Source of the DNA: Desulfocapsa sp.
GTDB lineage: Bacteria; Desulfobacterota; Desulfobulbia; Desulfobulbales; Desulfocapsaceae
Reading direction: 5' to 3'
Assembly (NCBI GenBank): GCA_013792135.1
Contig: VMSP01000115.1
Coordinates: 1 to 37,183 of the forward strand
DNA length: 37,183 nucleotides
Part shown: in pieces, positions 22,470 to 36,874 of the stretch
Numbering within the stretch: position 1 is the stretch's first letter
How the letters are laid out: the number at the start of each line of letters is the position of its first letter
Notes under the pieces: model-generated
What the model was told of the DNA's origin: nothing
Databases searched by the model: none
What the model saw: only the letters and a program-made list of their open reading frames with translations
Position numbers and translations under genes: made by a program

Positions 22470-22766
22470 TTATTTTCTTACCTGACTTCTTTTCTTCACC
22501 TTGTTAACATACTGGTAAAATGTTGGAAAAGCGACAAAAAAAGCCACACAGATCAGATATTCTATGCCTTTGATGTGGGTGTAGAAGTCAACCATTGTGT
22601 GCAAAGGTTTGATCATTCCTGTTGCTGCCATATATTGTCCTGCCAGCTCACTGACCGACCAGTTCAGGTAGGAAAGCGCATTTAACACTGCGGCACCGAC
22701 CCAGATGCACATGATAAAACCGGTTGCGAGGAGAATTTTTCCTGTTGTAAAATATCTGTTTTCCAT
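22470..22766 (-). CDS. Small two-helix membrane protein (98 aa), paralogue of gene at right edge
   Basis: I do not recognise a named family. The 98 residues form two likely membrane helices (about 8-32 and 66-86) joined by a loop with conserved-looking polar residues, and end in a basic tail. The C-terminal half, including H-I-K-G-I-E-Y-L-I-C-V-A-F-F-V-A-F-P, is almost identical to the partial protein at 37064-37183, so a family of such proteins is present in this genome. The ribosome site is CGAGGTAA. It follows the other small membrane gene by 120 bases containing a hairpin and is closed by a strong terminator. Position near the quinone module suggests a role in the respiratory membrane, which is inference. 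Confidence 0.75.
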   Translation of the reverse strand: MENRYFTTGKILLATGFIMCIWVGAAVLNALSYLNWSVSELAGQYMAATGMIKPLHTMVDFYTHIKGIEYLICVAFFVAFPTFYQYVNKVKKRSQVRK

Positions 22767-22822
22767 TTTATTACCTCGGGTAAGAGAGATAGAGAGAAAA
22801 TGAGGTGTTGCCCTCGGTGAGG

Positions 22823-22838
22823 AGAAGCTACGGCTTCT
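22823..22838 (-). other. Hairpin between the two small membrane genes
   Basis: AGAAGC-TACG-GCTTCT forms a perfect 6-base stem with a 4-base loop in the spacer. No T-run follows, so it is more likely a stability or processing element than a terminator. Confidence 0.35.
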
Positions 22839-22886
22839 TGTTCCCTTCTGGCCAATTCGATGATTATGTTATTTATTTACAACGAC

Positions 22887-23087
22887 TTAATTACCGGTGA
22901 AAGCTGTCATTAAGCTCTTCAATAAACCACCAAATCCGTAATTTATCAGACCGCTGATGATGCAGGCAAATCCCCCTCCGCCAACAAGTCCTGCCATGGC
23001 AAATCCGACCACTAATGCAAATTTTGAGGTTTCGTAACCGGCATTAATTTCTGTCTCCTTGTTAATTTGTACGTTTGTATTCTTCAC
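22887..23087 (-). CDS. Small glycine-rich membrane protein (66 aa)
   Basis: The start is GTG at 23087, fixed by an AAGGAG site six bases upstream. The 66-residue product has a polar N-terminus with many Asn/Glu/Lys, a hydrophobic, Gly-rich segment (about 24-50, with G-L-V-G-G-G-G-F) and a short amphipathic end. I cannot assign a family. It is the first gene after a sigma-54-like promoter at 23146, and is likely co-transcribed with the second small membrane gene. Small size and composition would suit an accessory subunit of a membrane complex or a stress-induced membrane peptide; there is no direct evidence for either. Confidence 0.65.
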   Translation of the reverse strand: MKNTNVQINKETEINAGYETSKFALVVGFAMAGLVGGGGFACIISGLINYGFGGLLKSLMTAFTGN

Positions 23088-23145
23088 GATGTTCTCCTTA
23101 TAGTGCTTATTTTTCGCTTTTTACGTCTTCTTTTGCCATCTATGA

Positions 23146-23161
23146 AGCATGAATGATGCCA
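23146..23161 (-). promoter_or_regulatory. Sigma-54-like promoter for the small membrane genes
   Basis: On the minus strand TGGCATCATTCATGCT keeps GG and GC twelve bases apart, as in TGGCACG-N4-TTGCA. The expected start site is about 50 bases upstream of GTG 23087. It overlaps one arm of an inverted repeat (TGATGCCA 23154-23161, TGGCATCA 23175-23182). Four positions deviate from the consensus, so it is weaker than the other two sites. Confidence 0.5.
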
Positions 23162-23331
23162 GTTGTTCAATTATTGGCATCAGGAATATGTTTGTTTCGT
23201 AACATGTTGATTATAAAAAATAAAATTTATGAAAAATCATTTTTGTGTTTTATTTGAGGCTTGCAACAGAAGTGAGGTGAGGACAGGGAGTCACGGCATA
23301 AGCGTAGTATTCAGAAAAAAGTATGTGGTGT

Positions 23332-23355
23332 GAACTCCACGAAAGTGTGGAGTTC
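23332..23355 (-). promoter_or_regulatory. Palindrome with CCAC-N6-GTGG core, possible activator site
   Basis: GAACTCCAC (23332-23340) and GTGGAGTTC (23347-23355) are perfect 9-base arms. The core CCACGAAAGTGTGG (23337-23350) resembles the cores at 31507 and 36811/36853. It is about 190 bases upstream of the sigma-54-like promoter at 23146, a usual enhancer distance. It could instead be the terminator of the kinase gene ending at 23429, although no T-run follows directly on the minus strand. Confidence 0.45.
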
Positions 23356-23428
23356 TTTTGTGGATAGGGGCAGGAAGACTGGTTACATCAGAATATGATA
23401 TGGGATGATGCAGAGGTGAAGGGCAGGT

Positions 23429-25435
23429 TCAACAGGGAAATATGATTGTGCAGATGTTTTGCTGCTCAGACCCTGATTCAACCTTCAGGTCACCACCAAA
23501 ATTCTGGAGAAACAGTCTACACTGTTGCAGTTGAGGCCAAGGCTCCGGGGTAGATCCGGAATGGTCTGTAGATTGCCAGGCCGTGCCATGGTCTTGCATG
23601 GTGATCAGGAGCTGGTTGTGGCCTGTCTGTTCGGTAAGAGTAGCGGCTATCTGAATCTGTTTTAGTTTATGGTTACCGGCAGGATATTTTGCTAAAATGC
23701 GGCTTCTGGCATTTTGTATTAAAGAAAGGATGACTAATTGGATGTCTTTACCATTTTTGGGAATTACAGGCAGGCCATGGGCGATTTTGATCTGTAGTGC
23801 AATCCCTTCTGTTTTTGTCTGTCCTTTAGTCAGGGTGATAATGGGTGCTATGATTTCCTGAACCGTGTATTGCCGATTTTCTTCGCTGTTGTCCCGGGCC
23901 AATTGCTGGAGCTCGACGGTTAGGCGAGAAACTTTTTTCTCTTCTGTCAGCAGCTTTTGCAGGAGTGTTGTTGACTCTGATAGCTGCCCCGGCTCATCTG
24001 TTAGATCCAACAAGGCCTGCGTATAGTTGATTGCGCCATTGGATAGGTCGGTGAGTTCATGGGCAAGGCCAGTGGTAAGGCTACCAAGTGTGGAGTAGCG
24101 GTATAGTCTGGACAGTGTTTCAATGGAGAGAGTGTTTGCTGGTAAGGAATTCAAATTAGAGGGAGCGTTATTTATCTTGTCATGGATAAGATGATTAAAA
24201 AAATATGAGAGCAGTGTCATCTCCCGGCTACTGAAACATTGATGGCCGTGATTGTAGAGGGTGATAATGGTAAGGATCTCGTTTGGTGATGGAACGGGAA
24301 ATGAGGCGCTGGAAAAAGTGTCATCAGAAAATGGCAGCAAGTTGCGTAATGATTCAGGAAGCGAAGAGGTGAAGAGGCGGGAGACAGTTGCGGTCTTTGT
24401 CTGCATTACTTTGCTTACGGAGTTACATAATCCTCCAGCGGTTTTACAATATTTGAGTAGATGATCAAGGATATCAAGACATCCTTCTTCACTTGTCGAT
24501 AGGCAACCACAGGCACTGACAGGTTGAGGCAGTTCTTTATCTTCGATGATGGTGCCGACCCAGACCAGACAATAATCAGCATTGACCTGGAGGACAGAGC
24601 AGATATCCTGCCACCGTTCTGTCGGTGATGTGGAATTTTTTTCAAGTGTTTCATAGAGGGCAATGGCGTTGCAGATCTGAGAGAGACGCAGATGCTCAGC
24701 AGCAAGGGTCGTAACGGTGTTGATAATTTCATGGACTGATACATCTAGGTTTGTTTTCTGATTTATTTGCGGATCTGTGTTTTTATCGTCGATGCTCCGT
24801 ACCTGGTGACCGAGTTGCAGAATAGGGTTGGTGATAGATCTGTTGATGAGAAAGAGTAGAGTGCTGACGACAAAGACAACAAGGGCCAGGCAGCCGACAA
24901 GTGTCTTGTGCAGACCGAGAAGCAGGGCCTGGGTGTAAGATGACAGGCCCTGGTGAAATTGGCTTACACGTCCGAACATTGAGCGGAGCAATGCTGTCAG
25001 GGTAGAAAGCTGTTCTGGTGATGGCGTATCGATGGTCTCTTGCACTGCGCGTAATTTTACTACCAGCCCAACCAGATCAATCTGACTGATAAATCCCTGC
25101 TTGAACTCCTCAGGAATCAGGATGTCATTTCGGATGAGAGTGATATCGGCCTCCAGTTCTTCGATTTCTCCAAGGATATCTTTGAACTGAATTTTTTTTT
25201 GGGTTATCAGAGTTTCATTAATATGTTCCTTGATGGTGCTGAACTCAAACAGCAGCTGTCTGCTGGCAGTGACCACCTGTTCGCAATGTTGATAAAGGAT
25301 ATATTGTTTGACACCTAAAATAGTCACCATTGTTAACAGAAAGATAGCAATACCGGTACTCGCTAGGAACATTGCTTTGAGAGGCAGTCTGAGAAGGAAT
25401 TGTTGGAATAAACCTGCCTTTTTTCCAGAGGTCAT
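23429..25435 (-). CDS. Membrane sensor kinase with degenerate ATPase domain (putative pseudokinase)
   Basis: The 668-residue protein (ATG 25435 after an AAGGA site) has a membrane segment at about 20-42, a helical periplasmic domain of about 130 residues, a second membrane segment near 173-195, a linker, a GAF-like domain at about 260-430, and a HisKA-like helix with H459 in G-L-A-H-E-L. The ATPase part keeps an N-box-like Q-N-A-R (N575) and D-H-G (D615, G617), but the F box and the G-x-G-L-G-L box are absent. The GAF and HisKA regions resemble those of the kinase at 34711, suggesting duplication. It lies 64 bases after the HybB-like gene, so it may sense the state of that respiratory module. 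Autokinase activity is doubtful. Confidence 0.8.
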   Translation of the reverse strand: MTSGKKAGLFQQFLLRLPLKAMFLASTGIAIFLLTMVTILGVKQYILYQHCEQVVTASRQLLFEFSTIKEHINETLITQKKIQFKDILGEIEELEADITLIRNDILIPEEFKQGFISQIDLVGLVVKLRAVQETIDTPSPEQLSTLTALLRSMFGRVSQFHQGLSSYTQALLLGLHKTLVGCLALVVFVVSTLLFLINRSITNPILQLGHQVRSIDDKNTDPQINQKTNLDVSVHEIINTVTTLAAEHLRLSQICNAIALYETLEKNSTSPTERWQDICSVLQVNADYCLVWVGTIIEDKELPQPVSACGCLSTSEEGCLDILDHLLKYCKTAGGLCNSVSKVMQTKTATVSRLFTSSLPESLRNLLPFSDDTFSSASFPVPSPNEILTIITLYNHGHQCFSSREMTLLSYFFNHLIHDKINNAPSNLNSLPANTLSIETLSRLYRYSTLGSLTTGLAHELTDLSNGAINYTQALLDLTDEPGQLSESTTLLQKLLTEEKKVSRLTVELQQLARDNSEENRQYTVQEIIAPIITLTKGQTKTEGIALQIKIAHGLPVIPKNGKDIQLVILSLIQNARSRILAKYPAGNHKLKQIQIAATLTEQTGHNQLLITMQDHGTAWQSTDHSGSTPEPWPQLQQCRLFLQNFGGDLKVESGSEQQNICTIIFPC

Positions 25436-25499
25436 GATTGCCATCCTTGTTTGATGATACAGCAAGGTCCCTGGTGAATCAGGAACCTTGCCGTTATTT

Positions 25500-26753
25500 T
25501 TACTTTTCTCCTTTCCAGCTATAAACTATCGGGAGACGGTAAACGATGAAACGGTAGGTTAGAAAATAAAGCGCGTAAATGGTGACTGTGATCCATACTT
25601 CTTTCCAGTGAGGAATCTCTGGATAGAGCTGCCAGTTATAGGCGATCATGGAGGTATTCAAGCGATTCCAGATAATACCAATAACACTGATAAAGGCTGC
25701 GAAACGAGCGAGGCTAGCCATGTTATTTCTGACTGCAAAGGCGAACATGAACATGGGCAAAACAACCCCGACTGCAAGTTCAAGCAGGTAATAACTACCC
25801 CAGCCGGTGAGCAGATAGGCCCATTCCTGATCATGAGCAATAGCGACTATCTTGATCACAAGGTAGGTGATCATGGCAAGGGAACACCCTTTGCCAAGTT
25901 TAATGGTAATATCGTCTAATGAGTTTTTGAATACATCATCACATCGCCAGCCGGCAAAATTTCTTATCAGGGTTGAGGAGACAATAACCATGGACAGACC
26001 TGCAAAGATCGATGAACAGAAAAAGTGGATCCATTGGAAATTGGTTGATAGCCAGAGCGGATGTATTTTTGCCGGCGCGTAGGTAAAGAGTGCCCCCAGC
26101 GCCCCCTGATGCAGGGTGGAAAGGATGATACCGGAAATGGTCAGTCCCAGCACCATTTTGCGGATGATGCGTTTTCCTTTGAGCCATCCTATCCATTCAA
26201 AAAAAGCAGGCAGGACTTCTGCGATCTGGACGGAAAGATAAGTGGCGACATGCCAGGCCACGAGGAAGAGGACTGCTGCCGGTCCCAGTGAGACAAACAT
26301 GGGATAGGGCAGGCGCCACCACATTCCTAAATCAACCTCGAGAAAGAGTACGGCAAAGAAATAGCCCAGCAGACCATTGAGCAGAGCCAGTCGTTCGATG
26401 GGATGGAAATCCTTGCGTCCAAAGAGTTCCACAGTTGTACCGAGCATAAAGCCGGAGGCGGAGAGCGGCACCATGCCAAAAAGACCAAAACCGAGAAAAA
26501 GCCCCCATGGATAATCATTAGAAGCATGGGTGACCGCGCCCAGTCCATAGATATAGCGCTGGAGGATAAGCGGGGCTCCGACGGCAAAGATGGCAATCAT
26601 CAGCCAGTTGATCGGATTGCGGAAAAATTGTTTAAAGTATTCCGGGCTGGAGAGTCCCAGCCACAGCTTTTCTTTTATGGTCCATTGTGTGCCGTCCGGT
26701 TTGATATGGTCGACAATGGGGATTTCAGGTCGTTGATGGGAAAAAAATCTCAT
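25500..26753 (-). CDS. NrfD/HybB-type quinone-interacting integral membrane protein
   Basis: The 417-residue protein has about ten hydrophobic segments and reads as a HybB-like member of the NrfD family. It has a short cytoplasmic start, W-G-L-F-L-G-F-G-L-F near 93-102, E-L-F-G-R-K-D-F-H-P-I-E-R near 118-130, T-L-H-Q-G-A-L-G near 215-222 and E-L-A-V-G-V-V-L-P near 330-338. Such subunits exchange electrons with menaquinone in complexes whose periplasmic side carries Fe-S and cytochrome subunits. The gene follows the HybA-like Fe-S protein by three bases and precedes the degenerate kinase. No hydrogenase subunits are nearby, so the periplasmic donor or acceptor is probably the cytochrome encoded first in the operon. 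Confidence 0.88.
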   Translation of the reverse strand: MRFFSHQRPEIPIVDHIKPDGTQWTIKEKLWLGLSSPEYFKQFFRNPINWLMIAIFAVGAPLILQRYIYGLGAVTHASNDYPWGLFLGFGLFGMVPLSASGFMLGTTVELFGRKDFHPIERLALLNGLLGYFFAVLFLEVDLGMWWRLPYPMFVSLGPAAVLFLVAWHVATYLSVQIAEVLPAFFEWIGWLKGKRIIRKMVLGLTISGIILSTLHQGALGALFTYAPAKIHPLWLSTNFQWIHFFCSSIFAGLSMVIVSSTLIRNFAGWRCDDVFKNSLDDITIKLGKGCSLAMITYLVIKIVAIAHDQEWAYLLTGWGSYYLLELAVGVVLPMFMFAFAVRNNMASLARFAAFISVIGIIWNRLNTSMIAYNWQLYPEIPHWKEVWITVTIYALYFLTYRFIVYRLPIVYSWKGEK

Positions 26754-26756
26754 TCT

Positions 26757-27686
26757 CTATTCCTCCTCGTGTGTATCTTCATTCTTGTTCTTCAGCCAAT
26801 CTTTCCGCGTTGCCAGGAGGTGAAATCCGGCAAAGAGGGCCGGCCAGATGGTCAGCACCATGGGAACGATACTGAGGAAGTCCTTGACTGAATTAAGAAT
26901 TGGTTCCTTGGGGACATGGGTGTCAAATCCAACCTGGTCAAAGGGGACGCTGGAGAGATACATCCAGGCTGTGCCGCCTACTTCATGTTCACCGTAGATA
27001 TGATCTTCATATTTATCGGGGGTCTCTCTAATCCGCTGACGGCCTATCTCGATCAGCTTATTACGTTTGCCGAAGGTCAGGGCTTCCTGGGGACAGGCCT
27101 CAACGCAGGCTGGAGGTCTTCCTTCCTTCAGGCGTGTATCGTAGCAGAAGATACATTTCATGATCCGCGGACTAAAGGAGCTGGAGTATTTGAAGGTGGG
27201 GATATAAAAAGGACAGGCGATCATGCAGGTACGACAGCCGACACAGACATTAGCGTTATAGATAACCGCACCTTCCGGGGTTTTGGTGTAGGCATTGACA
27301 AAACATGAGGTCAGACAGGCCGGCTCCTGACAATGGTTGCACTGTACTTTTTTGAACAGTGGGTGCTCCTGACCGGGGACGTCATAGCGGTTGACAATGG
27401 TGTAGCGGGTTTCGTCGGTTCGTCGTTTTTGGCCGTGAAGCATCTCGTCAAAGACGGAAAAGTCATCAAAGGGCTTTTCCGGTTGGGGAAGTTTTTGTTC
27501 TTCGTTGCAGGCGGCCTCGCAGCTTCGACAGCCGACACAACGGGTCAGATCGACGAGTACGCCCATACCATCCGGATAGCCTTCAAAGGTTGCTGCCTGG
27601 CTCTTTTTTTCTTGGAGCACGGTTGCGGCAACGGTTCCGGCAAGTCCGCCCTTGATAAACGTTCTGCGGCTTACAGTTGTTTTCAT
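26757..27686 (-). CDS. HybA-like periplasmic ferredoxin with four [4Fe-4S] motifs and C-terminal membrane anchor
   Basis: This 309-residue protein has a Tat signal (S-R-R-T-F-I-K-G at about 6-13), four cysteine clusters and a C-terminal membrane helix near 273-293. The clusters are C-V-G-C-R-S-C-E-A-A-C near 50-60, C-N-H-C-x4-C-L-T-S-C near 115-127, C-V-G-C-R-T-C-M-I-A-C-P near 148-159, and C-I-F-C followed by C-V-E-A-C-P near 178-200. This is the HybA arrangement: an exported Fe-S subunit that passes electrons between a periplasmic partner and the HybB-like quinone protein. Sixteen cluster cysteines are present, so four cubanes are expected. It sits between the cytochrome and HybB-like genes in one operon. 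Confidence 0.92.
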   Translation of the reverse strand: MKTTVSRRTFIKGGLAGTVAATVLQEKKSQAATFEGYPDGMGVLVDLTRCVGCRSCEAACNEEQKLPQPEKPFDDFSVFDEMLHGQKRRTDETRYTIVNRYDVPGQEHPLFKKVQCNHCQEPACLTSCFVNAYTKTPEGAVIYNANVCVGCRTCMIACPFYIPTFKYSSSFSPRIMKCIFCYDTRLKEGRPPACVEACPQEALTFGKRNKLIEIGRQRIRETPDKYEDHIYGEHEVGGTAWMYLSSVPFDQVGFDTHVPKEPILNSVKDFLSIVPMVLTIWPALFAGFHLLATRKDWLKNKNEDTHEEE

Positions 27687-27734: not shown

Positions 27735-28271
27735 TTAATGGCCACCGTGTTCACCGCCTGTGGTTTCAGTTGGGGCGTGTTGGCCGGTTTGAAACATCTT
27801 TTCCCCTGCCTCGGTCATGGTATGACAGTCCTGACAGCCGGTCGGCCCGCCCGTCTGCTGGTGACAGCCCACACAGTTGAGATGGTAGGCACCTTTCAAT
27901 CCCGGTTTGTCTATATGATAGAGTGAAGGGTTATCTCGTTTGCTCAAGTCTTCTTTGCTGAAGCGATCACTGCTGTGGCACTCCTGGCAGGAAACGGTAT
28001 TGGCCTCACCGCTTTTGGCGTGACAGCGGAGACAGTTGGTGTCGCTTACCTCTCCACCGGTGGTATGATGATGACACTGCACGCAGGCCGCAATTTCTGT
28101 GTGCATGGCGTGATTGAAATCAACTCCATTGTAGAGTCGGCTCAGGCTGTTGATTTCAACTGTTTCCGGTGCATCGGCAGCCTCCATGGCGTTTCCTGGT
28201 TGCGGCCAAAGCAGCACACTTCCAATGGCTAAGGCCAAAGTGGTGCGAAGTAATTTTTTTCTTATTCGCAT
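27735..28271 (-). CDS. Periplasmic five-heme cytochrome c (class III, c3/c7-like)
   Basis: The 178-residue protein has a signal peptide ending near G-N-A-M at 26-29 and five C-x-x-C-H heme sites at 63-67, 80-84, 95-99, 133-137 and 146-150. D-F-N-H-A-M-H at about 51-57 provides the usual distal His of class III cytochromes. The tail is His/Gly-rich, ending G-G-E-H-G-G-H. The protein probably shuttles electrons in the periplasm to or from the HybA/HybB-like module encoded next. A good AAAGGAGGA site precedes the ATG. It is 142 bases downstream of ftsH on the same strand, with only a small hairpin between, so read-through from ftsH is possible. Confidence 0.92.
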   Translation of the reverse strand: MRIRKKLLRTTLALAIGSVLLWPQPGNAMEAADAPETVEINSLSRLYNGVDFNHAMHTEIAACVQCHHHTTGGEVSDTNCLRCHAKSGEANTVSCQECHSSDRFSKEDLSKRDNPSLYHIDKPGLKGAYHLNCVGCHQQTGGPTGCQDCHTMTEAGEKMFQTGQHAPTETTGGEHGGH

Positions 28272-28413: not shown

Positions 28414-30240
28414 CTAACTCGCCCCCTCCCTTTTTGATTTTAAAGATGCCTCAATTCCTTTTTGATTGAGATAGCAGTGATAGACGATGGACATTTCTTC
28501 GGCGTCTACGGTTTCATTGACAAGAAGCGCTTCTGCCAGTTTATGGAGCAATTTGTTATGATCCGACAGCAGCTGTTTTGTTTCCTCGTAGCATTCCTCA
28601 ATGGTTTTTTTGATTTCGTGGTCGATGGTCTGCGCGGTCTGCTCGCTGTATGGTTTAACCGAAGAACCGCCCCCCAGAAATCCGCCATGGCCCTGCATAT
28701 GGGCGACTGGGCCAATGGTCGGATTCATTCCCCATTCACAGATCAGGCGGGTGGCAATTTCGGTTGCCGTGAGGATATCGTTACTGGCGCCGGTGGTCAG
28801 TCTGCCGAATATCAGTTCTTCCGCAACCCGTCCTCCCATGAGAATCTTGATTCTGTTGATAATGTATTCATAGGAGTAGGTGTAGCGGTCGTCCAGCGGC
28901 AGTTGTTGCGTCAGGCCCAGAGCCCTGCCCCGAGGAATGATGGTTATCTTGTGGACCGGATCTGTTTCCGGAAGCACGGTGGCGATTATGGCGTGTCCTG
29001 CCTCATGATAGGCGGTCGTTCGACGGTCTTTTTCACTGATAACGACGCTCTTGCGGGCCAGACCCATGACTATCTTATCTTTGGCCTCTTCAAAATCCGG
29101 CAGAGTGACCGATTCCTTGTCGTGCCGGGCGGCAGTGAGCGCTGCTTCATTGACCAGATTGGCAATGTCCGCGCCGCTGAATCCGGGGATGCTTTTGGCG
29201 ATAACGGCCAGATTGATGCCTGTACTCATGACAATTTTTTTACTGTGGACTTCCAGGATCTTCAGTCTGCCCTTGGCATCCGGCAGGGATATGGTGACCT
29301 GGCGATCAAAACGACCAGGTCGAAGCAGTGCCGGATCAAGCATGTCAGGTCGGTTGGTGGCAGCAACCAGGATGACGGTCTCGTCAGAGGCAAATCCATC
29401 CATTTCCACGAGCAGGGCGTTCAGGGTCTGCTCTCTCTCATCGTTGGAACCGCTGGCATTGCCGCCACTGCGCTTGCCACCGATGGCATCGATCTCGTCG
29501 ATGAAAATAATGCAGGGGGCATTCTTCTTCGCTTCGGTGAAGAGCTCACGCACACGTGAGGCCCCGACACCGACAAACATCTCTACAAAATCAGAGCCGC
29601 CAATGGAGAAGAAGGGAACCGACGCCTCACCGGCAATGGCCTTGGCGAGCAGGGTTTTTCCGGTGCCGGGAGGGCCTTGCAGGAGTATTCCTTTGGGGAT
29701 ATGTCCTCCCAGTTTACTGAACTTCTCAGGATTTTTGAGTGAATCGACAATCTCGGTGAGTTCGCCTTGGGCCTCCTCAATGCCGGCCACATCGGCAAAG
29801 GTAATCTTGCTGACTCCGATGGGGAGCAGATGGGAGCTTTTTCCTTTACTGAATCCTGATCCCGAGGCTTTACCTGATTGGGTTCGGTTAAAGATCAGCC
29901 AGCCGCCAAGGATGAGGACGACGGGAATCATGGATTGGAGAAAGTTGCCAAGGCCTGGATCAGATGGGTCGGCGGTAATTTCAACGGATTTATTGATGAG
30001 CTGGGGCATCAGTCCCGGCACGTCTGGAGAGAAAGTGCTGAAACTGTTGCCTTTCTTGTTCTCGCCGGTGATTTCCCCGCCTCGGAGGTGAATCTTTTTT
30101 ATTTCCGACTTGTCAAGATCAGCAAGAAATGCGGTGTAGGTCATGGTTGGTGGAGTGGTTTCCCGCAACCAGACGTTATAGCCGACAACACCAAGGGTAG
30201 TGAGAAGAAGCATCAGTAATCCCATCTGTACGTTATTCAT
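28414..30240 (-). CDS. ftsH: ATP-dependent zinc metalloprotease FtsH
   Basis: The 608-residue protein has membrane segments at about 5-22 and 102-117 flanking a small periplasmic domain, then an AAA domain with Walker A G-P-P-G-T-G-K-T at 189-196, Walker B I-I-F-I-D-E-I-D at 244-251, the F-V-G-V-G pore motif near 222-226, the second region of homology ending R-P-G-R-F-D, and the protease site H-E-A-G-H at 412-416. All catalytic residues are present. FtsH degrades damaged or unassembled membrane proteins and some regulators. ATG 30240 shares one base with the stop of the upstream transposase-like gene (TAATG) and has a GGAGGA site. It may be a specialised copy rather than the housekeeping ftsH, as folP/tilS-type neighbours are absent. 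Confidence 0.95.
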
Positions 30241-31163
30241 TACGTCCTCCTTGCGATGATCTGGGTGGACACCAGTTCTCGATACGGTTTGGGCTTATTG
30301 GCCAGAACGCCTTCGAGCAGGAGATTGAAGATTGCTTCCAGATTTGGCAGCATGCCACTGTTGTTTCTGAAACAAAACTCATTCAGATAGAGTTGTAAGT
30401 GCTTCAGCGCCACTCCTCCCCGATGGACCTTGTTCAGCCAGATCTCAAAACCCTTGATAAGTTGTTCTGCTCGATGGGGATTATGGGTCGGTGAGTCGAC
30501 GACATAGAGATATCCTTCCTGATCAATTGTTCTGTAGGCGGGCAGCCCAGGGGCAAAGATAGAGCTTCCGGATGAGACGGCTGTTCTCAAAAATGCATTG
30601 ATTGCCGAGGGTTCCAGTCTTTCGATGGTGGCCATTCTGATTCTTCCGGTGATCCCTGCAGGAAGAATGGTCTCTGCAGCAGCAACGACCAGGGCCTGAT
30701 TGGGTTTTTCCCATGCCGGCAGAACAGGGGCGCATCCCAGTTCGACCAAACCATGGCAGGCGGTGTTGTCTGCTGTTCCCATGGCCATGCGTAATTTTTG
30801 TAACCATGTCCATGCGGTTTGATAACTGGAGATCTTGAGAAGACGTTGCAGGTTTTTGGCGCTGGTGTCAGTCTCATTTGCACAGAGCCACCAGATTGCA
30901 AGGAGCCATTTGGAAAGGGGTTTTTTGCTGCCATGCATTATTGTATTGGTGGTGATCGAGGATGGATGTCCGCAGTGTATGCAGATTATCGTACGGGAAG
31001 GAGGGAATTGCTGGTGTTGCCAATGGCAGTAAGGGCATTGGAAGCCTTGCGGCCAGCGTTTATGAAAAAGAAAAGCAAGGCAGATATCTTCATCACTGAA
31101 CCAGTTCGGAATCTGCTGTTCGTTCATAGGGAAGGTGTTTGTATGATTCAACGGCTCATTCAT
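30240..31163 (-). CDS. Domesticated IS1595/ISXO2-like transposase homologue lacking catalytic Asp residues
   Basis: The 307-residue protein follows the ISXO2 layout: a zinc ribbon with C43-x2-C46 and C61-x2-C64, then the K-x-x-L-S-K-W-L-L-A-I-W-W segment near 81-92, I-S-S-Y-Q-T-A-W-T-W-L-Q-K-L-R near 111-125, and a DDE-like domain to the end (K-H-L-Q-L-Y-L-N-E-F-x-F-R near 254-266). The first catalytic region, normally V-E-V-D-E, is V-E-L-G-C at 140-144. The second, normally T-D-G-W, is A-P-G-L at 204-207. Both Asp are thus lost while the frame is intact, which suggests retention for DNA binding rather than transposition. Its stop overlaps the start of ftsH, and a sigma-54-like promoter stands about 50 bases upstream. 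No insertion-sequence ends were found. Confidence 0.85.
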   Translation of the reverse strand: MNEPLNHTNTFPMNEQQIPNWFSDEDICLAFLFHKRWPQGFQCPYCHWQHQQFPPSRTIICIHCGHPSSITTNTIMHGSKKPLSKWLLAIWWLCANETDTSAKNLQRLLKISSYQTAWTWLQKLRMAMGTADNTACHGLVELGCAPVLPAWEKPNQALVVAAAETILPAGITGRIRMATIERLEPSAINAFLRTAVSSGSSIFAPGLPAYRTIDQEGYLYVVDSPTHNPHRAEQLIKGFEIWLNKVHRGGVALKHLQLYLNEFCFRNNSGMLPNLEAIFNLLLEGVLANKPKPYRELVSTQIIARRT

Positions 31164-31211: not shown

Positions 31212-31228
31212 TTGCACATACGGTGCCA
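31212..31228 (-). promoter_or_regulatory. Sigma-54 promoter for the transposase-like/ftsH operon
   Basis: On the minus strand TGGCACCGTATGTGCAA matches TGGCACG-N4-TTGCA at all but two positions, with GG and GC correctly spaced. The predicted start of transcription near 31201 leaves a leader of about 38 bases before ATG 31163. An NtrC-type activator gene lies about 460 bases upstream. Confidence 0.75.
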
Positions 31229-31692: not shown

Positions 31693-33510
31693 CTAATTCT
31701 CTGTAAGGGCATTCAGGTCGATATTGAGTTCTCGCACCTTGCGGTAGAGTGTGGAGCGATCCATACCCAGGAGGCGGGCCGCTTTTGCCTTGTTACCCCC
31801 GGCTTTACTGAGTGCGGCAAGTATTCGGTCGACGATGGGCATATGTTCAAGGGGGACTGCATAGTTCTTGACAGGTGTTGTCTCCATGTATGGGGTTTGC
31901 GTTATTATGCTGTGGCCAAATGGGGCCTGTTCCGGTCTGTAGGTGGTGAGCTCAAGGGGGAGATGTTCTGTCGATATGGTGGAGCCGTAGCAGAGGACGC
32001 AGGCCCGTTCGATGACATGTTCCAGCTCTCGGATATTCCCAGGCCAGGGATACGAGGAAAGGAGTTCTCTGGCCTGATCAGAAATGCCGCTCACGGTCTT
32101 GCCGATCAGGCCAGAAAATTTTTGGATAAAGTGGTTGGTTAGAAGGATAACATCATCCTGGCGTTCCCGCAGTGGAGGCAGGATGATATCGATAACGCGC
32201 AGGCGAAAGTAGAGGTCTTCGCGAAATCCCCCTTCCTGGACTTTCTTCTTCAGATCCACATTGGTGGCGCCAATGACCCTGACATCCACCTGAATCGGGG
32301 TGTCCCTACCGACTGGATAAAAGGTCTTTTCCTGGAGAAAGCGCAGCAGACGTAACTGCATCATCGGGGAAATATCGCCAATCTCGTCGAGAAAAAGGGT
32401 GCCGCCGTCGGCCTGGAGGATCCGGCCCATCCTGTCTTGATCAGCCCCGGTAAATGATCCTTTTTTGTGACCGAAGAGTTCACTTTCCAGGAGATTTTCG
32501 GGGATGGCCGTACAGTCAACCTTGATAAGCGGTCGATTTTTCCTGTGACTTTCAAGGTGCAGGGCCTCAGTCACCAGTTCCTTGCCGGTGCCGGACTCCC
32601 CGGTAACAAGAACAGTGGTGTCAACCCGGCCCACGTTTTCGATCATGGTATAGACGGTCTGCATGGCATCACTGGCCCCGATGATCCGGTGAAAGGTCGA
32701 TCGTCTACCGGACTGCAGTGGAATTTTATTGCTCATATCACGAACGACGATGACGATACCTTGAAACCCCCCCCTCCCATCTTCCAGCGGAGAGATGCAG
32801 ATGGAGAGAACCTTCTTCCGCTTGTCCGGGGTGGCGCATTCAATCCGATGTTCAGTGATTTCAATACCGGTGCGCAGGACTTTTTCGGCGTCATCTTTTA
32901 ACGAGCCGAGCTCATCGTTGCCGCAGCTGGAGATAAGATTTGCTCCTTCAACCAGTTGTGGCCGCAGTTCACGGAATAGAATCCTGGCAGCCGGGTTCAT
33001 ACGGAGAATGTTGAAGTCACGATCGGCAGTGAGAATGGCGTCGGTGACACTTCGAAAAATGGTTTCCAGAGAACTTCGGTATTGTTCCCGCTCCAGTTCT
33101 GCCCTTTTTTTTTCCTGTTCCAGTTTACGTTGTTGTAGAGCCAGTCGTGCGGTTCGAAGCAGGGTATCTTTTTCAACGGGTTTAGGGAGATAATCAAAGG
33201 CGCCCAGGCGTACGGCCTCGGCGGCTGTCTCCACATTGGGGTAGCCGGTGACCATAATAACCGGACAATCGAGTCCCAGTTCCCTGGTTCGTTTCAGCAG
33301 GTTGATTCCAGAGGCGCCTTCAAGGACGATATCACTGATGATCAGGTCAAATGGACGGCTGGTCAGGGCGGTGACCGCCTCTTCGAAGGTTGCGGCCATG
33401 ATGACCGGTGAATATCCCTGGCGCTTCAGGAAGATCTGAAAGGTGTGGCGCAAGCTCTCCTCATCGTCAACAACAAGAATTGCGGCGTTGTTCTCTTCAT
33501 ATTCAGGCAT
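31693..33510 (-). CDS. Sigma-54-dependent NtrC-type response regulator (REC-PAS-AAA-Fis)
   Basis: The 605-residue protein has a receiver domain with D60 in I-I-S-D-I-V, a PAS domain at about 145-260, a sigma-54 activator AAA domain with Walker A G-E-S-G-T-G-K at 304-310, the sigma-54-contacting loop G-S-F-T-G-A at 351-356 and Walker B G-G-T-L-F-L-D-E-I-G-D, and a C-terminal Fis-type helix-turn-helix (N-K-A-K-A-A-R-L-L-G-M-D-R-S-T-L-Y-R near 572-589). G-S-F-T-G-A differs from G-A-F-T-G-A by one residue, a known variant. It is encoded downstream of a kinase and a tandem-PAS protein on the same strand, which are the likely partners. Likely targets are the nearby sigma-54-like promoters. Confidence 0.92.
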   Translation of the reverse strand: MPEYEENNAAILVVDDEESLRHTFQIFLKRQGYSPVIMAATFEEAVTALTSRPFDLIISDIVLEGASGINLLKRTRELGLDCPVIMVTGYPNVETAAEAVRLGAFDYLPKPVEKDTLLRTARLALQQRKLEQEKKRAELEREQYRSSLETIFRSVTDAILTADRDFNILRMNPAARILFRELRPQLVEGANLISSCGNDELGSLKDDAEKVLRTGIEITEHRIECATPDKRKKVLSICISPLEDGRGGFQGIVIVVRDMSNKIPLQSGRRSTFHRIIGASDAMQTVYTMIENVGRVDTTVLVTGESGTGKELVTEALHLESHRKNRPLIKVDCTAIPENLLESELFGHKKGSFTGADQDRMGRILQADGGTLFLDEIGDISPMMQLRLLRFLQEKTFYPVGRDTPIQVDVRVIGATNVDLKKKVQEGGFREDLYFRLRVIDIILPPLRERQDDVILLTNHFIQKFSGLIGKTVSGISDQARELLSSYPWPGNIRELEHVIERACVLCYGSTISTEHLPLELTTYRPEQAPFGHSIITQTPYMETTPVKNYAVPLEHMPIVDRILAALSKAGGNKAKAARLLGMDRSTLYRKVRELNIDLNALTEN

Positions 33511-33602: not shown

Positions 33603-34721
33603 TCAGGCAAATGTATTCAGGTCTCTAAAGACCACAACCGCCCCGGTAAGTTGTTGATTTTCCCGTATGGGAGTACTTACATATTCGACCGGGAAGGATT
33701 CACCGGTCTTGGTCCAGAAGATGTCATCCGATTTATAGTGAACAGAGCCGTCTTTGTAGGCCATGTATATAGGACATTCATCTACCTGATGAGTTGTACC
33801 GTCGGCATGGGTGTGATGGGCAAGATTGTGATGGGGCTTCCCGATCATTTCTTCAGGTTCCCAGCCCAGCATAATCGAGGCTGCTTTATTGCAAAAGGTG
33901 ACATTTCCCTGAGTATCCAACCCCACAATGCCGTCACCGGCTGAATTGACAATCAGCTCAAGCTGTTTCTTGAGTCTATTGCTTTCAGAAATATCCCGGA
34001 ATACCACAACAGCACCGGTAAGGATATCGTTTTCAACAATGGGAGTACTGGTATATTCTACAGGAAAACTGCTCCCTGATTTTGTCCAGAAAGATTCATC
34101 GGATTTATAGTGGACGGATCCATCGTTATAGCTCTTGTAAATTGGGCATTCGGTGATGGGATACTTGCTGCCGTCATTATGAGAGTGATGAACAAGATAG
34201 TGGTGTGAGTTGCCGACGAGATCCGCTCGTCGCCAGCCCAGTAAAGAGGAAGCTGTTTTGTTGATAAAGGTGACATTGCCATTGGTATCAATGCCGAATA
34301 TCCCCTCCCCAGCAGAATTAAGGATGATCTCAAGCCGTTTTTGCAGCTTTATACTGTCATTCTCCGCCTGGATACGTTCGGCAATTTCCCGGTTTAAAGA
34401 GCCGTTCACTACTGCCAGTTCAAACGTTCTTCGTTCCACGGTTTCTTCCAGGCTGGCCTGGGTTTCCAGGAGCGACATGGTACTTTCTGTAAGCAGTGCG
34501 CTTTTTTCCGCAAGGAGCTTGCTGTATTGTTTGCAACCCATTTGAATCAAGGCCAAGGTGGCAAGACAGAGCCCAGCCATAATGATAACAGCCCAAAGGG
34601 CGTACGGGAGCTGAAGGGATGATGTCTTGCTTGCCTGCAGTCTGTCAAGATAAAACAAGATCAGGGTACACCCGGAAAAAAGGATGGCTATACAAGAAAT
34701 AATTCGTGTTTTAGTTGTCAT
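33603..34721 (-). CDS. Membrane protein with two tandem near-duplicate PAS domains and no output domain
   Basis: From ATG 34721 (GAGGCGAG site, overlapping the kinase stop by 11 bases) the product has 372 residues. Membrane segments lie at about 5-26 and 37-60, separated by a very short periplasmic loop. A coiled coil occupies about 65-130. Two PAS domains follow at about 131-250 and 251-370. They are strikingly alike, both with an H-x-L-x-H-H-x-H-x-D-G motif, then E-C-P-I-Y, D-G-S-V-H-Y-K-S-D, F-W-T-K and F-P-V-E-Y-x-S-T-P-I. The His-rich and Cys positions might bind a cofactor or metal. There is no kinase, cyclase or DNA-binding domain. Placed between kinase and regulator genes, it may feed a signal into that pair. 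Confidence 0.85.
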   Translation of the reverse strand: MTTKTRIISCIAILFSGCTLILFYLDRLQASKTSSLQLPYALWAVIIMAGLCLATLALIQMGCKQYSKLLAEKSALLTESTMSLLETQASLEETVERRTFELAVVNGSLNREIAERIQAENDSIKLQKRLEIILNSAGEGIFGIDTNGNVTFINKTASSLLGWRRADLVGNSHHYLVHHSHNDGSKYPITECPIYKSYNDGSVHYKSDESFWTKSGSSFPVEYTSTPIVENDILTGAVVVFRDISESNRLKKQLELIVNSAGDGIVGLDTQGNVTFCNKAASIMLGWEPEEMIGKPHHNLAHHTHADGTTHQVDECPIYMAYKDGSVHYKSDDIFWTKTGESFPVEYVSTPIRENQQLTGAVVVFRDLNTFA

Positions 34722-36771
34722 TCTCGCCTCTAGTGGTCTCGGCAACAGGCAGGTCAATGATCACGGTAGTGGAATGGCCCAGTTCGCTGCTGATCCGGAG
34801 AAAACCATTATTCTCCAGTATAAGGCCATGGCTGATACTGAGTCCAAGTCCTGTTCCTTCGCCACTTGGTTTTGTTGAAAAAAAGGGATCAAACAGACGA
34901 TTCATGATGTCCTGCTCGATTCCTGTTCCCTGATCGGTGATGGTCAAGCGAATATACGATTTGTGTTTAAGGTTTATCTGCCCGCCTTCTATTGTTATCC
35001 GTTTGTTGGGATTTACCCCTGGATACCGATCATTCAAGGCATAGCGCGCATTGCTCAAAATATTCAACAGCACCTGCTGGATCTGTTGAGAGTTACACAT
35101 TATTAGCGGCAGGGTCTCCGGTATATTGAGCTCGAGGATGATGCTGTCTTTTTTTAGTTGATGATTAATCAGGTCAATACAGTTTATGATGATCTCCTGG
35201 AGAATCACCGGGGCTTGGGTATCTTCATTACGGCGGGCAAAGTCTAGGAGGTTGCTGACTATTCCAGCTATTCGTTTCCCTTCTTTGATGATGCGATGGA
35301 GGTTGTCTATGTTCTCGGAATTGTAGGGGTCGTCCAGGATTATCTGGGCATAATTGATGATGCCGTTAATGGGATTGTTGATTTCATGAGCGACACCCGC
35401 AGCCAGTTCGCCAACGGAGGCCAGTTGAGCCGCACGCATGGCCTCGGCCTTCATCTGTTCTTCTTCGGTGAGATCTCTGGCAATCAGCAGGGTGGCCTCC
35501 TGATGGCCTTCCGTTGGGGTGAGGGGGCTGAGCGTGATGAGATAATTTCCATTCAACCCCCTCAACGGCACTATATTAGTCATACTTTTTCTCATGCTGA
35601 TTTGTGTCTCTAAAGGGCAAACAGCGCCGGACGCCTTTCCGCAGTGGAGAATGTCACAAACCTTCTTGTTTATAACCTCCTCTCTGGTTTTACGGGCGGC
35701 AGCAAAGGTGGCCGGATTGGCATCGAGAATAATATTGTCACTGGAAACGATCAAGGCCGGATCCTGGATGGAGGTAAAGAGGTTTTCCCATTTTGCAATG
35801 GCTCGATTCAGTGCTAGATCAGCTTGTACCTTCTGGGTTACGTCTATACCCAAGAGAACCAGAGCGACCTGGCTCTCCTCGAAGTCAGGGAGGATGGAGG
35901 CGCGCCACTTGATAATTCTGTTCTCATTGCTTTTGGCTAAAAGCGTGGCCTGAAAACTCATATTATTACTGTTGCCTTGGAGCATTTCAGTGACCAGATG
36001 TTGGCATTGTTTAAAATCATCCGGGGATACCAGCACCTCAACCCAGTATTTGCCGTAGACTTCTTCCTGTGAATATCCAGTAATTTCTTCTGCCTTGGAA
36101 TTAAAGGAGAGTATATGCCCGCCGGGTGAAATTGAGACCATCAGGGCTTGGACGGTGTCAATAATCTCACGTTTTAAGTCACGCTCAAATTTAATGCTGT
36201 TGCTTATTTCCTGGCAGTAGAGGGCGCGTGAGATGTCGACAATGAGCAGGGATAGGAAATTGACCTCAGATTCTGTAAAAACATCGGCTTGGTCTGAGTA
36301 GATATTAATGACTCCATATTCGTGACATTTATAGAGCAATGGCCAGGAGGAGCAGGAGCGAACGCCGGTTATTGCAGCCATTTCTTGGAGAGCTGGAGAG
36401 TATTGGTTGGTTGTGATATCTTGAATGATGACCTGATTTCCGGGCAGGAGTGCGCAGGCAGCTGGGTTGCTCTCATTCATCTCCATTATTACCTGTTTGA
36501 TCAGGCGCAGACAAACGTCTTTTGGAATCCTTCCACACTTCAATGCTACGAGGGGCGTGATGCCGGTACCTACCGCATCTCTTTTGCCAGTCCACACCAG
36601 GCAGTACTCTTTTGTCTCGAGGATAATGTTGCAGCATTCCTCCAAAATAGAATAAAGGGTCTGATGTGTATCTTTCGTTGCATTGAGCTCGCTTATGGAG
36701 GTGAGCAGTTTATTGCGTTGTTCATGGTGTCGTAATAGATTAATTTCTTTTTGCCATTGGGTAACGGTCAT
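34711..36771 (-). CDS. Soluble sensor histidine kinase, GAF-PAS-PAS-HisKA-HATPase (NtrB-like)
   Basis: From ATG 36771 (AGGGAG site) the protein has 686 residues and no membrane segment. A GAF domain lies at about 30-190, PAS domains at about 205-315 and 325-435, and HisKA follows with H462 in G-V-A-H-E-I-N-N-P-I-N-G. The ATPase domain has N-I-L-S-N-A-R-Y-A, D-Q-G-T-G-I, F-D-P-F-F-S-T-K and G-T-G-L-G-L-S. All catalytic boxes are present. The second PAS domain has C-D-I-L-H-C-G-K and C-P-L-E, a Cys pattern seen in redox or metal-sensing PAS domains. The operon continues with the tandem-PAS protein and the NtrC-type regulator, its likely partner. An unusual inverted repeat occupies the leader. 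Confidence 0.92.
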   Translation of the reverse strand: MTVTQWQKEINLLRHHEQRNKLLTSISELNATKDTHQTLYSILEECCNIILETKEYCLVWTGKRDAVGTGITPLVALKCGRIPKDVCLRLIKQVIMEMNESNPAACALLPGNQVIIQDITTNQYSPALQEMAAITGVRSCSSWPLLYKCHEYGVINIYSDQADVFTESEVNFLSLLIVDISRALYCQEISNSIKFERDLKREIIDTVQALMVSISPGGHILSFNSKAEEITGYSQEEVYGKYWVEVLVSPDDFKQCQHLVTEMLQGNSNNMSFQATLLAKSNENRIIKWRASILPDFEESQVALVLLGIDVTQKVQADLALNRAIAKWENLFTSIQDPALIVSSDNIILDANPATFAAARKTREEVINKKVCDILHCGKASGAVCPLETQISMRKSMTNIVPLRGLNGNYLITLSPLTPTEGHQEATLLIARDLTEEEQMKAEAMRAAQLASVGELAAGVAHEINNPINGIINYAQIILDDPYNSENIDNLHRIIKEGKRIAGIVSNLLDFARRNEDTQAPVILQEIIINCIDLINHQLKKDSIILELNIPETLPLIMCNSQQIQQVLLNILSNARYALNDRYPGVNPNKRITIEGGQINLKHKSYIRLTITDQGTGIEQDIMNRLFDPFFSTKPSGEGTGLGLSISHGLILENNGFLRISSELGHSTTVIIDLPVAETTRGENDN

Positions 36772-36802
36772 GAAACACTCCCTGTATCTTTTTATGTACA
36801 AC

Positions 36803-36874
36803 GGTATATGCCACACTTGCGTGGTATAAAGTGTGGCAGTAATATAATATTACCACACAAGTGTGGCATATACC
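36803..36874. repeat. 24-base near-perfect inverted repeat in the kinase leader with CCAC-N6-GTGG sites
   Basis: Arms at 36803-36826 and 36851-36874 are complementary with a single mismatch, separated by 24 AT-rich bases. Each arm contains a core: CCACACTTGCGTGG (36811-36824) and CCACACAAGTGTGG (36853-36866). A further half-site TGTGGCA is at 36832-36838. The cores resemble those at 31507 and 23337. The repeat lies 32 bases upstream of the kinase ATG and downstream of the sigma-54-like promoter at 36902, so it could bind a regulator at DNA level or fold in the transcript. Confidence 0.7.

Follow-up and report, generated by a model that had tools for sequence, protein, structure and literature searches.

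A Conserved Pseudo-Histidine Kinase of Desulfobulbales Predicted to Modulate the Kinase and Sigma-54 Regulator Encoded in Its Cluster

Introduction

What is the role of a full-length histidine kinase-like protein that lacks the F and G2 boxes of its ATPase part and is encoded in a respiratory operon? The question is raised by a gene of Desulfocapsa sp. located in a stretch of 37,183 nucleotides (contig VMSP01000115.1), which was analysed as a whole and is called the window here. According to the original prediction, made from the letters of the window, the protein could be a pseudokinase that modulates the intact kinase encoded at 34711 (HK2 below) or the regulator (RR54) in response to the quinone pool.

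Results

Parts of the Pseudokinase Gene

The gene and its parts lie on the minus strand as follows.

23429..25435 (-): gene of the pseudo-histidine kinase, with 668 aa when read from the ATG at 25435
24803..25387 (-): N-terminal membrane/sensor region, residues 17-211, common to all family members
24206..24610 (-): GAF-like region, spanning residues ~276-410
24425-24511 (-): five Cys in the GAF-like region, Cys309, 311, 319, 330 and 337
23876..24118 (-): DHp (HisKA-like) region, residues 440-520, with H459 at 24059-24061; HELTDLSNGAINYTQ
23432..23875 (-): degenerate ATPase-like region, residues 521-668, without F and G2 boxes

The open reading frame extends over 23429-25465 and an upstream TTG start at 25465 gives 678 aa, ten residues more; the numbering from the ATG yields H459, as in the original prediction. 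The opposite (plus) strand of 23429-25435 contains many stops. The phospho-acceptor His with an acidic neighbour, as expected of an active kinase, is present (H459-E460), and the residues at H+4 and H+5 are Asp463 and Leu. The predicted N-box-like Asn was also found (SLIQNARS), together with a remnant of the G1 box (QDHGTAW). Meanwhile, the F and G2 boxes are absent from the full-length frame of 668 aa, as predicted, and no alternative frame contains them; the set of N, G1, F and G2 boxes that characterizes an active HisKA/HATPase_c kinase is thus incomplete.

The membrane topology of the sensor, inferred by eye, is of the two-TM type. The PDB search with the sensor profile gave no credible homologue, and the AlphaFold2 model of the window protein and one orthologue was unusable (mean pLDDT 37.9). 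The Cys cluster of the GAF-like region (C-x-C, C, C, C) is seen in 10 of the 12 GAF-bearing members of the pseudokinase clade shown, the exceptions being L044, which does not have it, and L107, which lacks the first Cys. It is absent in seven readable family members outside the clade; three further rows of this comparison matched elsewhere and are uninformative. A redox or metal role for the cluster would be a guess.

The Loss of the ATPase Boxes Is Conserved

In the Pfam search, the full-length pseudokinase matched neither HisKA nor HATPase_c at E values up to 1. The C-terminal 155 aa alone scored 13.1 bits against HATPase_c (E 0.14), below the cut-off of 26.4. Matches to HATPase_c at E up to 1 were obtained for 8 of the 26 clade C-termini (best 0.0013; L095 is missing from this 26-row alignment) and for all 17 intact homologues (best 4.7e-23). 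The comparison of the clade C-termini with the 17 intact homologues by hhalign gave a probability of 99.5, and the PDB profile search with the C-terminal region led to kinase chains, LvrB, RetS and ZraS being among the best. The homology to intact catalytic domains thus persists at the profile level, which shows a common origin. A W-x5-C motif, nearly invariant in the clade, occupies the former position of the lid. Judged by its sequence, the pseudokinase is a histidine kinase from which the ATP lid has been lost.

The clade was taken from a quick tree, from which a 28th row, L089, was excluded as misplaced by its cut sensor. By motif reading, 27/27 members lack both the F box and the G2 box, so the degeneracy is conserved among orthologues; the His is lost in seven of the 27 members and the N-box Asn is kept in six. 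The dN/dS of the pseudokinase gene versus three orthologues is 0.24-0.28 overall and 0.16-0.46 by domain, with 0.16-0.21 in the DHp and 0.26-0.46 in the ATPase-like part. In the comparison with the orthologue L038, in which the ATPase-like part reaches 0.46, the overall value of 0.28 is the highest in the cluster. As seven neighbours have values of 0.06-0.19, constraint on the pseudokinase gene is the weakest among the genes compared. Nevertheless, by these ratios every domain of the pseudokinase is under purifying selection.

A sequencing error or a hidden frame was also considered and rejected: the orthologues lack the boxes too, and no frame of 22500-24300 has them. The absence of both boxes in all 27 clade members, together with the purifying selection, argues against an error. 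The protein has a kinase architecture whose dead catalytic part is itself conserved (27/27, dN/dS <1), as in a pseudo-histidine kinase of the RocA/FasC type.

Family Spread and Recurrent Decay

Matches to the pseudokinase at 1e-30 were found in 22 of 97 related genomes, its own included. The profile of the N-terminal sensor matched 148 of 257 genomes of Desulfobulbales, and the class-level search covered the same 257 genomes. In a sample of the phylum, 10 of 395 genomes matched, nine of them, the own genome included, in Desulfobulbales. One sensor-profile match lies outside the order (L225 in G407, E 4e-40) and was perhaps transferred.

We read 80 members, a selection from more than 150 places in the listed matches; left out were L039 (DNA the same as that of L038), L089 (sensor cut), and L094 and L101 (contig ends). 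By permissive motif rules, 18 members have the His and readable ATPase boxes, and 62 have lost the ATPase boxes, the His or both: five only the His, 30 only the boxes and 27 both. The degeneracy is thus recurrent across the family. On the quick sensor tree, where 29 of 80 forks are open, the fewest changes are five for the ATPase boxes and eight for the His (seven and eight with three excluded rows retained), the direction of change not being inferred. Asn stands in place of the His in all 17 short forms read, and several relatives have lost the GAF region. In L056, L057, L090 and L091 the ATPase boxes are intact and Asn replaces the phospho-acceptor His, which is the reverse of the window case.

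Gene Cluster and Control Elements

All genes of the cluster are codirectional, on the minus strand, from 36816 downward, in the order HK2, PAS protein, RR54, IS1595 transposase relative, FtsH, cytochrome c, HmcB, HmcC and pseudokinase, with the 66 aa protein last.

34711..36816 (-): HK2, intact GAF-PAS-PAS-HisKA-HATPase kinase; HEINNPINGIINYAQ
33603..34757 (-): protein without a kinase domain, containing two near-repeat PAS domains and adjoining HK2
31693..33510 (-): RR54, receiver-PAS-sigma-54 activator
31213..31228 (-): sigma-54-type promoter-like site TGGCAC-N5-GTGCA, ~50 bp before the IS1595-like ATG
30240..31163 (-): IS1595-transposase-like protein between RR54 and FtsH, first catalytic Asp absent
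28414..30240 (-): cluster-bound FtsH paralogue
27735..28271 (-): multihaem cytochrome c (class III type)
26757..27686 (-): HmcB-like Fe-S protein, 399.9 bits (curated HmcB cut-off 420)
25500..26753 (-): HmcC-like (NrfD-type) membrane protein, 352.6 bits (curated cut-off 550)
25436..25499 (-): intergenic stretch from hmcC to the sensor gene, containing a stable stem-loop
22887..23087 (-): 66 aa protein; many related loci contain relatives of it downstream of their sensor gene

Related genomes show the same gene order, some of them lacking the IS1595-like gene or the PAS protein, and the pseudokinase gene is a fixed part of this Desulfobulbales cluster. The HmcC-like gene lies directly upstream of the sensor gene in 55 loci. 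HK2 is upstream of RR54 in 14 of the 17 loci uncut by contig ends, either adjoining it or separated from it by the PAS protein; in the exceptions, RR54 is present without an adjoining HK2 (L200, L202) or neither is present (L201). No receiver domain was detected in HK2 with Pfam. The HmcB- and HmcC-like proteins score below the NCBIfam cut-offs of the equivalogs that define an Hmc complex.

The first Asp position of the IS1595-like protein, which we take to be catalytic, is occupied by a residue other than Asp in 21/21 cluster proteins aligned, and such a protein does not qualify as an active transposase; three IS1595 paralogues of the same genome retain this Asp. Among the loci read, the IS1595-like gene is confined to clusters with a degenerate sensor kinase. 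The literature search found no bacterial domesticated IS1595-type transposase among the matches listed.

A second cluster of the same genome (L009, G000:C92:26000-45900) contains HK2B, RR54B, small proteins, FtsH and a cytochrome, as well as NrfD-type and Fe-S proteins; these two and the cytochrome are named by resemblance. Its family member is a protein of 301 aa with Asn for the His and without the ATPase domain. Four FtsH-like matches at 1e-40 were found in the genome; one of the four is weaker, and two of them sit in the HK2/HK2B clusters.

The sigma-54-type site is the best one before the IS1595-like gene in all 19 loci with enough upstream DNA, where it agrees at 9-10 of 11 positions, in most loci in the form TGGCAC/T-N5-xTGCA. 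The control scan before FtsH in the same 19 loci gave 6-8 positions in 18 and nine in one. In the whole window, the consensus occurs at the level of chance, with 23 sites versus 22.27 expected at two mismatches and one versus 1.66 at one mismatch; the case for the site is its repeated position before the IS1595-like gene, tested against mononucleotide shuffles there.

For the hmcC-sensor gap, a z below -3 against dinucleotide shuffles was obtained in 39 of 55 loci. The same level was reached in 0 of 47 and 2 of 49 loci for two other gaps and in 7 of 25 for the FtsH-cytochrome gap; it should be noted that the control stretches can contain as many as 100 coding bases and thus differ in kind from the hmcC-sensor gap. 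The stem-loop recurs in position, its sequence not being evidently conserved when distant loci are compared, and may lower the expression of the sensor. The recurrent sigma-54-type site and the recurrent stem-loop fit a feedback role.

Recognition Positions of the DHp Helix

The resemblance to the 34711 kinase proposed in the original prediction holds for the HisKA/N-box part (32% over 177 aa, E 3e-18) and is weak for GAF (17% over 135 aa, E 5e-4). The best matches of the genome to the DHp/N-box part of the pseudokinase are HK2 and HK2B.

With H243 presumed to be the acceptor of EnvZ, its specificity residues fall on H+7, +8, +11, +12 and +14, and these positions were transferred to the present family. 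Residues N-G-N-Y-Q occupy them in helix 1 of the DHp in 72/80 members: 13/18 of the intact ones, 5/5 with only the His lost, 29/30 with only the ATPase boxes lost and 25/27 with both lost. In EnvZ, the residues are T250, R251, L254, A255 and E257, as given in the available part of the source (PMC2991266). Among 45 kinases of the genome with a readable H-box, which are part of its 75 PF00512 matches (61 over the cut-off), HK2 is the only one with all five positions; three others share three positions and 41 share two or fewer.

The fetched loci also contain 60 distinct strong-scoring kinases outside the family, 54 of them of the HE[IV]NNP type, and the five letters of these 54 are NGNYQ (29), TGNFQ (10, mainly cluster B), NGNFQ (6), NSNFQ (6), NGNLQ (2) and NTNFQ (1). 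The profile used for both kinase counts, in this genome and in the fetched loci, included HK2 and HK2B among its sequences and so favours HK2-like kinases. The letters common to the DHp of the pseudokinase and HK2 may partly reflect common ancestry.

Discussion

The comparisons above establish that the lid is dead, that the sensor and the recognition helix are retained, and that the gene is linked to a redox operon and to the genes of an intact kinase and a sigma-54 regulator. Since the kinase machinery is dead but the surface for regulator recognition is retained, the pseudokinase probably acts by steering the neighbouring active kinase and not by signalling alone. We infer that it modulates HK2-RR54. 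Namely, we assign a probability of about 0.6 to the reading that it is a conserved pseudo-histidine kinase with a non-catalytic output through the DHp, which modulates HK2-RR54 by pairing with HK2 or by docking RR54. The shared DHp positions and the common cluster lend indirect support to this part of the original prediction. Sensing of the quinone pool is an idea, the sole link being the HmcB/HmcC-like proteins encoded just upstream.

The pseudokinase would be a second, membrane-bound sensor of the HK2/RR54 circuit, with its output via the DHp helix bundle. HK2 would phosphorylate RR54, and RR54~P would drive the sigma-54-type promoter before the operon of the IS1595-like gene, ftsH, the cytochrome gene, hmcB, hmcC and the pseudokinase gene. 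The pseudokinase would then be made together with the Hmc-type redox module, perhaps at a lower level owing to the stem-loop. It would sense a periplasmic or membrane condition and, either paired with HK2 or docked to RR54, would alter the signalling of these two proteins. Its mode may be like that of RocA or FasC, H459 perhaps being phosphorylated in trans.

The protein might instead be a dedicated phosphatase, whose DHp removes the phosphate from RR54~P when the sensor is in one of its states and so provides negative feedback, HK2 being the kinase. For the window protein we regard this as unlikely. The DHp domains of EnvZ and NtrB are stated to be sufficient for phosphatase activity, and with CrdS H371A the half-life of CrdA~P is 2.6 min versus 53.5 min without CrdS, as given in the part of PMC3510030 available. 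CrdS requires Asn, or less well Thr, at H+4 for this activity, and the His-less members of our family (n=32) have exactly these residues there (Asn in 30, Thr in two). However, the window protein has Asp463 instead of the Thr or Asn of HisKA phosphatases, as do 13 of the 30 His-keeping members with a dead ATPase, the window protein included (16 of the other 29 have Asn), and CrdS N375D was without significant phosphatase activity in the same part of that source. The Leu at H+5 also speaks against this activity, as CrdS P376A showed a large loss (PMC3510030). Because of Asp463, phosphatase action was set aside as the main reading for the window protein; it fits many of the relatives. Our literature search of titles and abstract starts found no natural DHp-only phosphatase among the matches listed. 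In this genome, the retained H459-E460 and the Asp at H+4 make phosphatase action less likely than docking or than pairing in the manner of FasC/RocA. A His-based mode does not suit the whole clade, since the His is lost in 7/27.

For the His-less relatives, the DHp may act as a phosphatase. A broader and tentative reading, to which we give well under even odds, is an order-wide two-sensor circuit with one slot selected only for sensing and regulator recognition. Catalysis (ATPase, His or both) would have decayed repeatedly in this slot while the five recognition positions stayed fixed. The members with His replaced by Asn and with Asn kept at H+4 would be sensor-gated DHp-only phosphatases acting on the sigma-54 regulator, and the members keeping the His would be docking partners that HK2 phosphorylates in trans.

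A histidine phosphotransferase of the ChpT or Spo0B type, in which H459 accepts phosphate from a donor and hands it on to a regulator, be it RR54 or a different one, seems improbable to us. Spo0B and ChpT have a dead ATPase-like domain as well, and both H and E(H+1) are found in 30/30 ATPase-dead His-keeping members, a class defined by the His. Such a function calls for a conserved His, but the His kept as H459 in the window protein is lost in 7/27 clade members and replaced by Asn in 17/17 short forms, and no receiver domain that could feed such a relay was detected in HK2. A gene in decay, whose operon relies on HK2 while the sensor drifts away, would account for the recurrent loss of catalytic parts, the GAF region gone in several relatives and the highest dN/dS of the cluster, but it is very improbable given the open frames, a dN/dS well below 1, the place kept in many genomes and the fixed helix positions.

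The pseudo-histidine kinases in the literature compared are single cases. Here, one slot of one cluster decayed several times and in different ways, and the intact relatives, a partner kinase that is still intact and the operon presumed to be the target stand side by side as a natural experiment. The family can show which parts a histidine kinase still requires once its phosphate comes from another kinase; the heterodimer, docking and phosphatase models become directly testable. The results also point to a redox-control module of Desulfobulbales; the literature search found no study on this FtsH/Hmc-type cluster among the matches listed.

Comparison with Known Systems

Most of the nearest known systems are ones in which one kinase-like protein works with another. 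FasC and FasB of group A Streptococcus are likewise two kinase-like sensors with one regulator. FasC is described, in the available part of the source, as a proposed pseudokinase that needs its His, whose membrane and DHp parts suffice and which forms a heterodimer with FasB (PMC12675982). In contrast to FasC, many relatives of the present protein have lost the His, and the sensor is different, the regulator is of the sigma-54 type and the operon encodes a redox module. RocA of the same species also works via an intact kinase, CovS, and its own His is dispensable according to the portion available of PMC7028121. RocA has six putative TM segments, whereas here the sensor is of the two-TM type (by eye) and its gene accompanies that of the kinase and the operon presumed to be the target.

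In Pseudomonas, RetS is a kinase-like protein that modulates another kinase, GacS (PMC12675982, same part). RetS is among the best PDB profile matches of the pseudokinase C-terminus. It differs in having receiver domains and another sensor. DivL of Caulobacter, acting on CckA, is reportedly a kinase repurposed as an input sensor, as is proposed for the pseudokinase, and differs in that Tyr replaces the His. The Hmc complex of Desulfovibrio is similar in that HmcB- and HmcC-like proteins are encoded in the present cluster; here, they score below the curated cut-offs and FtsH, HK2 and RR54 are attached. The hmc operon carries the 16-haem HmcA, in place of which the present cluster has a small cytochrome.
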